Of a stretch of 64,000 nucleotides of DNA, positions 34,809 to 64,000 are shown piece after piece. The notes under the pieces were generated by a model. The model was given only the letters and a program-made list of their open reading frames with translations. It was not told the DNA's origin and searched no databases. Both the position numbers and the translations under genes were made by a program. This stretch comes from a bacterium (GTDB lineage: Bacteria; Acidobacteriota; Thermoanaerobaculia; Multivoradales; JAHEKO01), in the NCBI GenBank assembly GCA_024224155.1, contig JAAENP010000364.1, forward strand, positions 1 to 64,000, read 5' to 3'. The stretch's first letter is position 1, and every line of letters starts with the position of its first letter.

Positions 34809-35204
34809 ATGACAGAGCAACCAGCAGACATCACACTCTATGCCGCAATCGAACCCACCGGGGATTACGAGATCTTCGAGATCAAGCTGTTCTCCGACTA
34901 CGCGGGGAGCCAGCCAACCAAGGGCGACATCCAGGTTCCCATGGGAGGGGCGGTTCTTCGTTTCAAGAAGGTAGCAGCTCAGGTAGTGTGGCCGTGGCGG
35001 TTTCACGATCTCACCATCCACCCGATGGGGCCGGAAACCGACCGGCTCGATCTCAAGTGGAGAGTGAGCCCCGCTGACGTTGTTGTGAAGCACGAAGAGG
35101 CGACGGTGAAGCGCACCTATAGCTACACCCTCTCGGTCGAGTTCGCCGGAAGTTACTTCTATCTCGATCCCCAGATGGTGGATGTCGGCGGCGGTCAGAA
35201 GTAG
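34809..35204 (+). CDS. Hypothetical protein, 131 residues
   Basis: A strong ribosome binding site (AGGAGG) precedes the ATG. The protein is soluble, beta-rich and without a signal peptide (ITLYAAIEPTGDYEIFEIKL, then YSYTLSVEFAG). No family recognised. Its last 71 codons including the stop are repeated at 43433-43645 at roughly 90 percent identity. It follows the kinase by 68 bases and could belong to the same unit. Confidence 0.6.
   Translation: MTEQPADITLYAAIEPTGDYEIFEIKLFSDYAGSQPTKGDIQVPMGGAVLRFKKVAAQVVWPWRFHDLTIHPMGPETDRLDLKWRVSPADVVVKHEEATVKRTYSYTLSVEFAGSYFYLDPQMVDVGGGQK
34992..35204. repeat. 213 bp partial-gene duplication, left copy
   Basis: The second half of the 131-residue gene, from CCGTGG to the stop codon, is present again at 43433-43645 in the same orientation and with the same length. 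Substitutions are scattered and mostly silent, so both copies evolved under or came from coding constraint. Confidence 0.88.
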
Positions 35205-35278: not shown

Positions 35279-35335
35279 AAAAGCGGTGACAGAGTACTCA
35301 TCCCGGCATTGACCTCCGAAGCCGAGAGCAAAGAC
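35279..35335 (+). repeat. Interspersed repeat element, copy 1 (divergent)
   Basis: Begins AAAAGCGGTGACAG and keeps TACTCAT and the CCGAAGCCGAGAGCAAAGACC segment of the family. Its stem is only partly formed. It lies in the 328 bp gap between the 131-residue gene and the GMC oxidoreductase, 75 bases after the former. The rest of that gap shows nothing I can support. Confidence 0.7.
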
Positions 35336-35532
35336 CCCCCTCTATGGGGCAGCGCTTTCGCCGGCGTGGCGACTTCTCGTTCGAGGTGCCTCGAATTTGG
35401 GTAGAGCGACGACTGAGTCGCAACCGAGACATCTGAGCCCACGGCCCTACCCTCACAAGTGGTGCGGCGCTCGGGAAGCCAGCCATAGGCTGGACTCCAG
35501 ACGGCCAACCCTGCCCGATGGAGGACAAGCGC

Positions 35533-40204: not shown

Positions 40205-40326
40205 AAAGCGGTGACAGGATACTCATTCAGGTCTTGATTTCCGGAGCCGAGGAAAGAGACCGATTCGTCCGTGACGCTCCAGGTCTGGGGCTCTGAACGG
40301 TCCCAGGCGCATCCTCTTGCTGTTGC
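40205..40326 (+). repeat. Interspersed repeat element, copy 2
   Basis: Core AAAGCGGTGACAGGATACTCATT is followed by GGTCT-TGA-TTTCC-loop-GGAAA-G-AGACC, a bipartite stem, and CCGATTCGTCCGTG. Similarity to copy 3 continues for about 50 further bases (to 40326). It lies 60 bases upstream of the secreted protein at 40386. Confidence 0.8.
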
Positions 40327-41410: not shown

Positions 41411-41532
41411 AAAGCGGTGACAGGATACTCATTCAGGTCTTGATTTCCGGAGCCGAGGGGAGAGGCCGATCCGTCCGGGCACGCCAGGTCTCGAGCTCTG
41501 AGCATTCCCAGGCGCGTTCTCTTGTCGTTGCG
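41411..41532 (+). repeat. Interspersed repeat element, copy 3
   Basis: Almost identical to copy 2 over the first 48 bases. The distal stem strand differs (GGGGAGAGGCC against GGAAAGAGACC) in a way that mostly keeps pairing through G-U pairs. It lies in the 383 bp gap 41199-41581 between convergent genes, which otherwise shows nothing I can support. Confidence 0.8.
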
Positions 41533-43009: not shown

Positions 43010-43210
43010 GACTCCACCTCCTCAGTGCCCTTCGGCAGCTCGGCGGTCTGGAGGTGGGTCTCGGACCCGTGGCTTTGCGTCGCCGTCTTTCGGCGGCTTT
43101 GCCGTTTTCGGGGCTGGTTCCCCTTCTACACCCGCAGCATGCCGGACGCGCCACCCGGAGGGGCGGGCAGACGCTGTGGCCTCCCGCGAGGCTCGGCCCT
43201 TCGCGGGGGA

Positions 43211-43368: not shown

Positions 43369-43440
43369 AAAGCGGTGACAGGATACTCATTACGGTTTCG
43401 ATCTCGGAAGCCGAGAGCAGAAACCGATTTGTCCGTGGCG
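43369..43440 (+). repeat. Interspersed repeat element, copy 4
   Basis: AAAGCGGTGACAGGATACTCATT is followed by the best-formed stem of the family: GGTTTC-GAT-CTCGG-AAG-CCGAG-AGCA-GAAACC. It then runs directly, through a shared CCGTG, into the duplicated gene fragment at 43433. Confidence 0.8.
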
Positions 43441-43645
43441 GTTTCACGACCTCACCATCCACCCGATGAGGCCGGAAACCGACCGGCTCGATCTCAAGTG
43501 GAGAGTGAGCCCCGGCGACGTTGTCGTGAAGCACGAAGAGGCGACAGTGAAGCGCACCTACAGCTACACCCTCTCGGTCGAGTTTCTTGGGGTCTACTAC
43601 TATCTCGACCCCCAGATGGTCGATGTCGGAGACGGCACCTTATAG
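43433..43645 (+). pseudogene. 3' fragment of the 131-residue gene (right copy of the 213 bp duplication)
   Basis: Seventy codons plus TAG read WRFHDLTIHPM and DLKWRVSPGDVVVKHEEATV, collinear with 34992-35204. The final residues differ (DVGDGTL against DVGGGQK). No start codon or 5' half is present. On the opposite strand it forms the false C-terminal end of the truncated lipoprotein gene. Confidence 0.85.
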
Positions 43646-43994
43646 GCAACGGGCGCATCCGCTTCAGTGGAATCTTGAGCAGAGGCCTGGCTTCATCCAG
43701 GACCCACCATGGCGGCGAGGCGATATGGAGACCAATGAACGCATCGTTGGAATCCCACACGAAGTGCTCATCAACGTCTGTCGGTATCTCTGCACTAACT
43801 CCGGCATGCTGAAACTCCCGCAGACGCCATTCACCGACTAAGCGAGTCCGCTCCAGCCGGCCGCAGTTTAGTGCACCGTCGTAGTCGTCCTCGCAGGCCC
43901 CGCAACCTGTAACTGAACCGAGAATCGCCAGACTCAAGAACAGAATGGTCAGAAGTGTCCCCTGACCAAACTGGCTTTCGGGTGTTGACATCAA
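43494..43994 (-). pseudogene. Lipoprotein gene truncated by the duplicated fragment (candidate immunity gene)
   Basis: A lipoprotein signal peptide ends at the lipobox SVTGC (Cys31), followed by CGACEDDYDGALNCGRLERT and a globular part (VGEWRLREFQHAGVSA, DEHFVWDSNDAFIG). Genuine coding sequence runs only from 43994 to about 43646; the remaining frame to 43494 is the antisense of the 213 bp duplication. The start codon overlaps the stop of the orphan Rhs tip by four bases (ATGA), the same arrangement as the lipoprotein after the main Rhs gene. I infer a broken immunity gene. Confidence 0.65.
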
Positions 43995-44938
43995 CCGATT
44001 CGTCGCTGTGTCACCTGATCTACACAGCCTCTCTCATTGCCGATTGGCGGGGTCCCTGGCGGTGCCGGTGGCGTAGGTTCGTAGCTCGGAATCCCGGCCT
44101 CCCAACTGTCCTTGGGCTTCCGCGCCGCAGCACCGATCTGACGCGCGGTGAGACCTCCGATACATACACCTTGAGTGATTCCCTCAATAACGCCACCAGT
44201 CCTGGGATTCGTGTCCCACTTGCCACCAAGTCCAATACCTTCGTTCCAGTCTTTAGCCTCGTTCGGCAACGCAATTTGATTCGACTCTAGGATGTGCTTC
44301 GCCCAGGTGCCGCAGTTATTCGTACCGAGCTTGTACGTCCCGATGTCGCCACTCAGTGGCGATTTGTTGTTGATGTTGCGCGACGCAATGGCCACTCGAT
44401 ACAAGCGCTCCTGTACATCCTGCGTGACGCCCAAAGGCACAATCTGCGACTGAAGAGCCCCTCCCTCGAGTCCTTGGAAGGTCCTCTGGTCAAATTTGTC
44501 GCTGTAGCCAATGAACGAACCCATCGTGCAGACTGTCCCACCCAGGTCGTTGCTCGAGTCCTGAGCGCCGCCCACCTCTCGAACCTTCCACGGGTGAAAG
44601 GAGAACGTCTCGGCTTCAGGGTTGGGGTTACGGGGAGGCTCCTCTTGCTTTCCAAGGTCTCGGACCAACCTCCGTCACTTCCCCGGATCCTCGAGTCCCT
44701 GGCCGTCGAACGCGAGGAACACGTGGCCTACCTTGGGATAGCGTTCTCGTAACCAGTCCTTATTGAACTCCCGATACACCAGATAGACCTCTTTCCCCAT
44801 CGGGTCCACATTGTTGAAGGGGTCGCTTAGCCCGTACTGATAGAGGCTCGGTGCGTCCTGGTACTCCTTAGAATCAACTGAGATAAACCGCCCGATCTCG
44901 GGGTCGTAGTAGCGGTTCCGTAAGTACACCAAGCCGAT
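43991..44938 (-). pseudogene. Orphan Rhs C-terminal tip with papain-like toxin domain, one in-frame stop
   Basis: The frame begins inside the Rhs core (GLVYLRNRYYDPEIGRFISV, SLYQYGLSDPFNNVDPMG) and continues into a tip unlike that of the main Rhs protein. An in-frame TGA at 44675-44677 interrupts it; the same frame is otherwise open to 43991. The tip has VGHVFLAF about 260 bases before the stop's far side and NNCGTWAKHIL later. His before Cys in this order fits circularly permuted papain-fold enzymes (LRAT/NlpC-P60-like peptidases or acyltransferases). There is no N-terminal Rhs region, signal or start. It is a displaced, decayed toxin cassette. Confidence 0.7.
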
Positions 44939-45785: not shown

Positions 45786-48700
45786 GGCGAGCTGGCGAGG
45801 CGATTGTACCAGTACCAAGGTGACGTCCACCTAGACAACGCGCCGCGAAGCGACCCGCGTACCCGATTCACCTCAGCACCGATGGGACCGGCCGCCGAGG
45901 TCGCTGCGCTATGCCGCCTATAGTCGTCTACCCCGTGCGTGTTCGGGAAGTCGAAGGGCCTCCCAAAGGACGAGTAGTGGACGGTCACGTTCGGATTGGC
46001 ATGGGCCAAATCGTTGACGAGCGGTGCGCCTGCACCCGCGCCCATCGGCACGATGTCTCGCGTGTTGATGTAGGCCGTCGTCGAACGCAGTCCTGACGGG
46101 AACGTATAAGAAGCTCCACCGATCGAGATGAAGTCGATCCTCGACCGCTCCGCTTCGCTCAGGTGCGACAGGCTTGAGGTCGAAATCGCTGCCCCCTGGC
46201 TGTGGCCCACAAGGGTCAGAGACTCGTTGGCACCTAGCTGTCCGAGGCGACCGCGAACTGTCTTCACCACCAAGCGTGTCGTCTCGTCTGGAAGGTTGAG
46301 CTTGTTCACAAACGTGGTCTGAAGAATGTCCTCAACCCCACTTCGCGTCGGGTTCCAGATCGGAGTGACGGACCGTCCAAGCATCTTGGCCGTCTCGTCA
46401 GCATAGAAGGTCGCCCTCTCGGAATCATTCAGGATGCCGTTTACAAACAGAGCAGAGTTAGCTTCCGTCCCGATCGTGTCCAAGACCCTCGCGCGTTTAG
46501 CGTTCGCGTCATCCCCAAATCGCCGAATCAACGACCCCGCGATCAACCCCTGGCAGTCCAGTTCAAGTGGATTCGCCTTACAGAATTCGGCATGCTCACG
46601 CATGGCTTGTACGCCTCGCTCGACGATCGGTCGGTACTTTGAACGACTCTCGAGCCCCAACGGATCGCTGGCATTGAACGGGCTATTGCCCGCGTACTGG
46701 TACAAGCTCGGCCCGTCCACGTACCCCATCGGGTCGGCGGTGATGAAGCGCCCGATCTCGGGGTCGTAGTAGCGGTTGCGGACGTAGACGAGACCGGTCT
46801 CCTCGTCCACCGGCCTGCCGTGGAAGCCGTGGTCGTTGCCCACGGTCGAGGTCGCGACTTCACCCGGCTTGGGCGTGTCGTAGAGGCGACGTTCGTCCGT
46901 GAAGATGCAGAGGATGTCCGGCGGGCAGCCGGCGAGGGACGAGGCCAGGTGGAAGTCGAGGGTGAGGGTCTCGGAGACGCCCTTGCCGGCCAGATCCATC
47001 GGACCGGTCGCGATCTCGAGCGTGTGGGTGCCGTTGCCGACCGAGTCCGAACCCAGGAGCCGGTAGCCGTTGGCCGCTAGGCTCCAGGACGTGGGCTGGC
47101 CGTCGAGGGTGATCGCCGCACCCGCGAGCGCCGGGTCCGGCGTCTCGGAGAGCTGGACTCGGAGCCCGCCGTCCTTGTAGTCCACGGTTACGAGCCGCGG
47201 ATCGGAGAGGTCCTCGACGACGCTGTCGGCGGCCGGCCAGGAGAAGGCCAGGACGTAGTCCGCGCTCGGCCGGTTGCCGAAGAGGTCGACCAGGGCCTCG
47301 GGTTCGATCACGAGCTCGAGGGCGTCACCCGAGGCGGGGACCGAGCCCAGATCCACCACTAGCCGCCTCTGGGCCTGCCGGCCGTCTTCGACCGGCTGGG
47401 TGACCGTGACCGGGAGGTTCATGGCCGCGGCCGTATCGGTCAGACGGAGGGCCTCGGCGGTGACAGCCTCTTCCAAGTCGTCCGGATCGACCGCTTCGGT
47501 CAGCTCGAGGACGAGGCTCGAGCCCTCGGTCCGCACCTGCTCGACCGCCGGCGGCGTGGCATCGGCGAAGATCGTCCGCTCACCGAACGGTGTGAACTCA
47601 TAGCGCTCGACCACTCTGCCGTCCGGGCCGGTCGAAGCCGCGAGGTTCCCGGTCGAGTCGTAGAGCGGCACGGTCTCGGTCTCGAGCGTGCCGTCGCCAT
47701 CGACGTCCACCGCCTGGTTGACGATCTCGTCGAGCCCCAGCCCGAAGGTGCGCACCGCCGACAGCTCCTCGGTCTCGATCGAGGTCGCCGGGTCGGTCTC
47801 CACCCGGTACTCCTCGATCGATTTCCAGCGGTGCCAGACCGTCTGGCTCCTCCGGACGCCGACTTCGCGCTCGACCCTGCGGTTGAGAGCGTCGTAGGTG
47901 TAGGTCGCCACGTCCTCGAGCGGCCCGCCCAGGAGATCTTCGCGGGCCACGCGCACCAGCCGGTTGCGGTAGTCGTAGAAGTAACGGCTCTTGCCCTTCT
48001 GGGTGAGATTGCCGTTCAGGTCGTAGGCGAGGGCCAAGCCGTTGATCGAGGTCGGGCGGTTGCGGTTCGACGGTGGCAGGCTCTCGGCCTCGCCGATCTC
48101 GTCCTCGACCGAGGTCTGGGCGATCAGGTTCTCGGCCTTGTCGAACTGGTACTGATATGCCTCGGCGGCATCGGCCGAGAAGCCCGGCGTCGAAGCGGAG
48201 TTCGGCAGAACCGAGCCCGCGGGATCGGGCAGCTTCGCCGCTTCGGTGACCCGCCCCGCGCCGTCGTAGCCCATCTGGAAGCCGCGATTGCCGAGATCGC
48301 CGCGGGTAGTGGCGGTCTTCAAATACCGCGGGCTCCAGGCGATCTGCTCTTCGAGAGCCGCGACCGGGTCGGGGCCCGCCGCCGCGCCCGGCAGGAAGCT
48401 CTGACCGGTCATGCGCTTGGCCGAGTCGAACGTCATCTCACCTGAGACTCCGTTGCCGAGGGCCTTGGTCTGGATGAGATCGGGACCGCGGTAGCCGTAG
48501 GAGGCGGCCTGGGCCACAGGATCCGGGCTCCCCGCCGTTCCGGTCGAGATCACCCGCGGCCGGTCGAGCGGGTCGAACGTCTGGGTTACCTCATGGCCCG
48601 AGGGATAGCCGATCTTGGTCGCCGAGCCGACCTTGTCGTGCTGGTACGAGACGGTCTTCGTCATGGCCAGCGGCCCGGTGCCGATCCTCGTGCCCTCCGA

Positions 48701-63050: not shown

Positions 63051-64000
63051 TTATCCGAAGCCGGAGAAGTCGTCGTCCGGATCGAGAGGATCTGTGCCGA
63101 ACAGGACCTCGTCGCCGTCCCAGAGCCCGCCGTCGTCGGTGTCGGGGTCGTTGGGATCGGTCAGGTGAACGTTGACCTCGGCGGCGTCGTCGAGCTCGTC
63201 GGAGTCCGAATCCTGCTGCCGCGGGTTGGAGAAGTGAACCGTGACCTCGTCGCCGTCGCTCAAGGTGTCGGAGTCGGTGTCGGAGTCGGAGGGATCGGTG
63301 AAGGCGGCGTCCTCCTCGGCGTTGGTGAGGCCGTCGCCGTCGCCGTCGAGGACGCCGTCGCCGGCGTTCAGCGGATCGAGACCGAAAGCGACCTCGAAGC
63401 CGTCGCGGGCGCCGTCGCCGTCGCTGTCCGGGTTGGTGGGATCGGTGCCGAGGACCAGCTCCTCGGCATCTTGCGCGAAGTCGCCGTCGGTGTCCGCGCG
63501 CCGCGGGTCGGTGCCGTGGACGTCCACCTCGTCGCCGTCGGTGAGACCGTCGCCGTCGCTGTCGGAGCTTGTGGGATCGGTGCCGGCGGCCTCCTCTTCG
63601 ACGTTGGTCAGGCCGTCGCCGTCGAGGTCCAGCGCGCCGTCGCCCGCGTCCAGCGGGTCGAGCCCGAAGCGGTGCTCGAAGCCGTCCCCGGCGCCGTCCC
63701 CGTCGCTGTCGGGGTTGGCGGGATCGGTGCCCAAAAGGGCCTCCAGCCCGTCCGACAGACCGTCGCCGTCGAGATCGGGGTTGATCACCCGCAGCACGAC
63801 CTCCAGCTGGCCTCCACCGTCGTCCGCCCAGGCCACGAAGGTGCTGTGGTCGCGCACCGCGACCGCCGGCGCCGCCGCCAGGAACGGACCGCTTGCGGTG
63901 CGCCCGGACGTCAGCGGCTGCCGCGGCAGGACCTCGGTGCCCGCATCGTCCAGCGCGACGAAGAAGGCGTCGCCGCGCTCCCCGAACTGCAGGTCCTCGA
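63051..64000 (-). CDS. Thrombospondin type-3 repeat protein, C-terminal part (runs off the right edge)
   Basis: The frame is open to the window edge on the minus strand, so the true start lies beyond 64000. From about 63780 leftward it has repeated calcium-binding TSP3 motifs ([64 protein letters not shown]). The visible N-terminal part ([20 protein letters not shown]) looks like a beta-propeller or Ig-type domain. It ends seven bases before the Rhs start, so both are probably one operon and both act outside the cytoplasm. It may be a stalk or adhesion partner of the Rhs protein. Confidence 0.85.

Follow-up and report, generated by a model that had tools for sequence, protein, structure and literature searches.

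A probable decayed orphan Rhs tip and immunity cassette behind a giant Rhs gene of Acidobacteriota

The window, a stretch of 64,000 nucleotides from an acidobacterial draft genome in 576 contigs, carries on its minus strand a giant Rhs gene (63043-45782), a lipoprotein gene reaching to 44994 and, directly behind both, a small orphan unit. The giant gene encodes a protein of 5753 aa with a signal-like N-terminus, a match to the Rhs core profile TIGR03696 (E 3.1e-22) and a lipase-type tip, which matches Lipase_3 at E 0.0021, below the cut-off. Its stop codon is overlapped (GTGA) by the start of the lipoprotein gene (45785-44994), which belongs to this main cassette. A protein with bacterial TSP3 repeats (eight stretches, E 5e-36) is encoded directly upstream of the giant gene, at 63051-63857 on the minus strand. 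Three Rhs cores were detected with TIGR03696 in the whole draft genome, one of them being the core end of the orphan unit. The third Rhs gene (L046, G000:C38, 4145-5800) has a different tip, for which a Pfam search returned no match, and the small gene downstream of it looks soluble and is without a signal sequence; lipoprotein-type partners are thus not simply a general feature of the Rhs genes in this organism.

The orphan unit occupies a minus-strand frame (44935-43991) with one stop in 315 codons, compared with 5-15 stops in each of the other five frames. Its first 47 codons (44935-44795) specify the end of an Rhs core, with DPMG as the final residues, and TIGR03696 (Rhs_assc_core) matches residues 2-46 of the translation of 44932-44678 at 49.4 bits (cut-off 32.5; E 4.9e-13). 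Fused to this core end in one frame is a tip domain of about 270 residues (44794-43991), which finishes at its own TGA (43993-43991). The similarity of the core end to that of the main Rhs gene (46674-46796) is 72-77% at the DNA level over just 97-123 nt, so that the orphan core is not a fresh duplicate of the main one. A core fragment is present and the shell absent, and the tip, downstream of the main rhs and immunity genes, is directly followed by a small, putatively immunity-like gene. The preliminary description, which saw here an orphan Rhs tip repeating the layout of the main locus (core end, tip, overlapping lipoprotein gene), is borne out in these respects.

The only interruption of the frame is a TGA at 44677-44675, as had been described, between motifs containing GH and SFH. 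The reading frame is unchanged on either side of it, and an intact homologue (see below) aligns across the stop with an ordinary residue in the same column. Recoding of this TGA was considered and rejected, as no RNA element was found near it and the genes neighbouring the orphan tip end at TGA, using it as a stop; an assembly error could account for it, given that the source is a 576-contig draft. A search for a sigma-70-like promoter around the cassette found none, which is weak evidence.

Overlapping the stop codon of the tip is the remnant of a lipoprotein gene (43994-43646, minus strand). The four-base overlap proposed earlier (TTGA) holds if translation begins at TTG 43994; it is reduced to one base if the start is ATG 43991, perhaps the likelier choice. 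What remains of the protein retains a signal with a hydrophobic stretch, a lipobox (VTGC, residues 27-30) and about 85 further residues. At about 43646 the frame runs straight into an inserted piece (43430-43645, plus strand in origin), which has its own stop codon at 43643-43645; at this junction the lipoprotein frame falls from 0.62 to 0.34 in third-position GC. The piece is a copy of the 3' end of a plus-strand gene in the same window (34809-35204), positions 43430-43635 being 89.8% identical to 34989-35194 over 206 nt; the earlier statement that foreign DNA cuts the lipoprotein here is correct. At the protein level, the donor gene has copies in this draft genome and in another genome of the family; it stands behind a protein kinase/TPR gene, and a full-length relative has the same context in the same-family genome (L016). 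No credible homologue of the lipoprotein was found among 149 genomes of the class (a match in L014, E 0.004, was set aside because it falls in the region of a protein kinase gene), nor did profile searches of Pfam, NCBIfam, PHROGs and PADLOC return a match. From its position alone, the lipoprotein is presumed to be the cognate immunity protein of the tip.

The fragment that cuts the orphan lipoprotein is abutted by one copy of a dispersed repeat of about 67 nt, which lies in the window at 40205-40271, 41411-41477, 43369-43435 and about 35280-35336. Its 20-nt core is found 10 times in the draft genome when up to 2 mismatches are allowed (reversed control pattern, 0). A c-di-GMP-I-GGC riboswitch (RF03167; 65.8 bits, E 1.2e-14) is located at 43030-43112 on the minus strand, just upstream of gene 43009-41582, the product of which has an Lcl_C domain and a signal-like N-terminus and is probably a surface protein under cyclic dinucleotide control.

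Searches with the broken tip, in which X was placed at the stop position, gave no match in Pfam, NCBIfam, PHROGs or PADLOC apart from the Rhs core, and sequence searches of the PDB with single sequences and a pair profile returned chance-level matches only. A search of the class identified a single credible relative (49% identity, E 2.5e-37), encoded on contig CALMZP010000100.1 (L011) of an uncultured acidobacterial MAG from another family of the same class. Matches in L006 (E 0.003) and L009 (E 0.0003) were discarded because they lie across ordinary genes, not toxins; other weak matches were in L005 (E 0.002) and L007 (E 0.003). No further credible homologue was found in 396 genomes of the phylum, in plasmids or in phages, and peptide-pattern scans of the GTDB species collection and of viral contigs, which reach close relatives only, detected no other tip. 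The tip is one of a small family without an entry in Pfam, NCBIfam, PHROGs or the PDB.

The homologue is intact: at L011 2353-4314, core and tip share one frame, the core scoring 46.5 bits against TIGR03696 and the remainder matching nothing in Pfam or NCBIfam. An unbroken relative attached to an Rhs core, which the preliminary description had proposed as a check, thus exists, on a core fragment that likewise has no N-terminal shell. Ahead of it on the contig (L011 1-2063) is a first cassette, an Rhs end whose tip is unrelated and resembles DUF6765 (E 2.3e-6), followed by a lipoprotein gene in ATGA overlap; this makes another envelope-type pair of tip and partner in Acidobacteriota. The second core fragment (725 bp), which bears the homologous tip, is 85% identical to the first. 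The tip family thus occurs in spare cassettes at two loci, each time after another Rhs tip, in genomes from separate families of the class.

After the homologous tip comes a gene (L011 4311-4619, GTGA overlap) whose product, about 102 residues long, is predicted to have three membrane helices. This protein has no resemblance to the lipoprotein that partners the tip in the window, and the anticipated lipoprotein homologue behind an intact tip is not what the locus contains. A small overlapping gene nevertheless follows each of the four tips at the two loci, by GTGA for the main tip of the window, by TTGA or one base for the orphan, and by ATGA and GTGA in L011.

Comparison of the two tips points to a candidate active site. 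Only one of the four cysteines in each is common to both, in LGTNNCG (44329-44309), and is the candidate catalytic residue; two of three histidines are shared, one in VGHVFLAFD (44731-44705), the first candidate catalytic histidine, and one in ETFSFHP (44611-44591). SFHP is the most conserved block of the pair and NNCG the second. The order is histidine (GH), histidine (SFH), cysteine (NNCG), corresponding to H42, H87 and C189 in the homologue, and these shared residues carry limited weight because the family has two members. As read from the sequences, this order fits a permuted NlpC/P60-like (papain-like) enzyme.

Several known proteins share features of this arrangement. Tox-Act1, a toxin of the Salmonella T6SS, is a permuted NlpC/P60 phospholipase with an essential histidine followed by a cysteine, and with membrane-associated immunity (PMC12994826). 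The present tip is similar in having histidine before cysteine, a putative membrane-type immunity protein and the envelope as its likely target; it differs in being carried by an Rhs core and, as far as can be compared by description, in its spacing, with 147 residues from histidine to cysteine in the homologue (H42, C189) against 108 in Tox-Act1 (H43, C151). Lnb_N/DUF4105 (PF13387), Peptidase_C92 (PF05708) and LRAT (PF04970) likewise have an early histidine motif and a late N-x-C motif, and the Y-x3-T-N-x-C of acidobacterial Lnb_N proteins is present in the tip too, but the tip has no profile match to any of the three. Tox-HDC, Tox-PL and Tox-NLPC/P60 are further Cys/His domains found at the C-terminus of polymorphic toxins (PMC3482391), though Pfam gives no match for the tip; for Tox-PL and Tox-NLPC/P60 the order listed there is cysteine before histidine.

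Fold comparisons did not assign the tip to the permuted NlpC/P60-like families. AlphaFold was given three rows, the homologue and the two pieces of the window tip as separate rows, and produced low-confidence models (pLDDT 31.8 for the whole tip, 39.8 for a trimmed domain). A structure search with the better model gave a best Z of 5.4, to a homing endonuclease, which is meaningless at such confidence; homing endonucleases and ribosomal proteins, and no papain-like chain, were among the matches listed. With hhalign, NNCG was placed on the cysteine motif of Lnb_N with a score of 15.8, while shuffles reached 19.8, and a two-block score was equalled by 250 of 5000 shuffles for the window tip and 592 of 5000 for the homologue. 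HMM and block comparisons with Lnb_N and Peptidase_C92 stayed within shuffles and background; LRAT was sought in the class as a further comparison family, and none was found. Lnb_N and Peptidase_C92 have been placed in one superfamily (PMC12994826), and they miss each other in the same comparisons, so profile comparisons are silent on the fold in either direction.

The LRAT/NlpC-P60-like permuted papain fold proposed in the preliminary description thus retains its residue order, with NNCG holding the only shared cysteine, and lacks a profile match; we regard it as possible, at slightly less than an even chance. A toxin of another fold, such as a nuclease or a Tox-HDC-type Cys/His enzyme in which the histidine-before-cysteine order is coincidental, is a serious if lesser prospect. 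The unmatched papain-like profiles, the composition of the structure-search lists and the background-level Lnb_N and Peptidase_C92 comparisons all speak for it. Yet structure matches from models at pLDDT 32 and 40 mean little, known permuted families also miss each other in the same tests, and an envelope target fits the membrane-type immunity candidates better than does a nuclease. For the intact tip, those candidates (lipoproteins or a three-helix membrane protein) suggest action on the envelope, which we consider somewhat likely. A lipid-cleaving cysteine enzyme like Tox-Act1 is perhaps the most likely chemistry, though its chances fall a little short of even.

As for the unit as a whole, its place immediately after the giant Rhs gene and lipoprotein leads us to read it as a decayed orphan Rhs-CT/immunity cassette of a known kind, and this is probably what it is. 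Orphan rhs-CT/rhsI and cdiA-CT/cdiI modules (PMC3150448, PMC3967940) are alike in lying behind the main gene and its immunity gene, in having a short core homology that ends in DPxG and is followed by a small immunity-like gene, and in being without a start or export signals of their own. The present case differs in its host, an acidobacterium, in the 5753-aa Rhs protein with signal-like N-terminus that precedes it, in a very short and diverged core arm, in damage to both halves and in an unnamed tip family. The cassette might instead be alive, if the TGA were a draft error or the tip a reserve for recombination and the shortened lipoprotein still gave immunity. The 576-contig draft and the retained signal, lipobox and about 85 further residues allow for this, as does a frame so clean over 315 codons, one stop aside, that any decay would be recent. 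It is nonetheless unlikely, because the lipoprotein frame enters a copied gene end, an independent sign of decay, and because the core shared with the main Rhs gene is limited to about 100-120 nt (72-77% identity), where Salmonella has 522 bp at 95% (PMC3967940) and L011 has 725 bp at 85%. Far less probable still is that the tip is nothing more than the remains of a displaced Rhs C-terminus, with no function as a toxin, beside an unrelated lipoprotein gene: no homologue of the lipoprotein turned up among 149 genomes of the class and no toxin family matched the tip, but a tip kept at 49% identity in another family, with an intact frame, on an Rhs core and next to an overlapping membrane-protein gene, argues against it. 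With its short, diverged core arm, a stop in the tip and a broken lipoprotein, the decayed cassette in the window would no longer be usable and is most likely dead.

Orphan cassettes of such layout are without initiation signals and are loaded by recombination (PMC3150448, PMC3967940). An orphan Rhs tip of Salmonella comes to be expressed once it has recombined with the main gene through a shared 522 bp at 95% identity (PMC3967940), and the immunity genes of orphan modules can be both expressed and protective (PMC3150448). By analogy, we infer that a spare tip, a short core stretch and an immunity gene would be kept in reserve downstream of the main Rhs and immunity genes, the tip staying silent, without start signals or an export shell, until recombination through the shared core joined it to the main shell; the immunity gene could meanwhile protect the cell. 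The toxicity of the tip and the immunity function of its neighbour are likewise inferred. When intact, the tip would most likely be a cysteine-dependent enzyme, with two histidines ahead of one cysteine as permuted papain-like lipid hydrolases have, and would harm a competing bacterium at its envelope; a lipoprotein or membrane-bound protein would serve as its immunity. A broader proposal, which we consider rather doubtful, is that the tip founds a small new family of acidobacterial toxins that are carried by Rhs proteins, depend on a cysteine, attack lipids and have a permuted papain-like core, and that immunity proteins of two unrelated kinds (a lipoprotein and a three-helix membrane protein) have come to be paired with it.

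The arrangement of a main tip with a spare, known from enterobacteria, would thus also occur in uncultured Acidobacteriota, behind Rhs proteins of very large size; at the window and homologue loci, all four tips are followed by a partner gene of envelope type. While the copy in the window is probably dead, its intact homologue may represent a new family of envelope-acting toxins.
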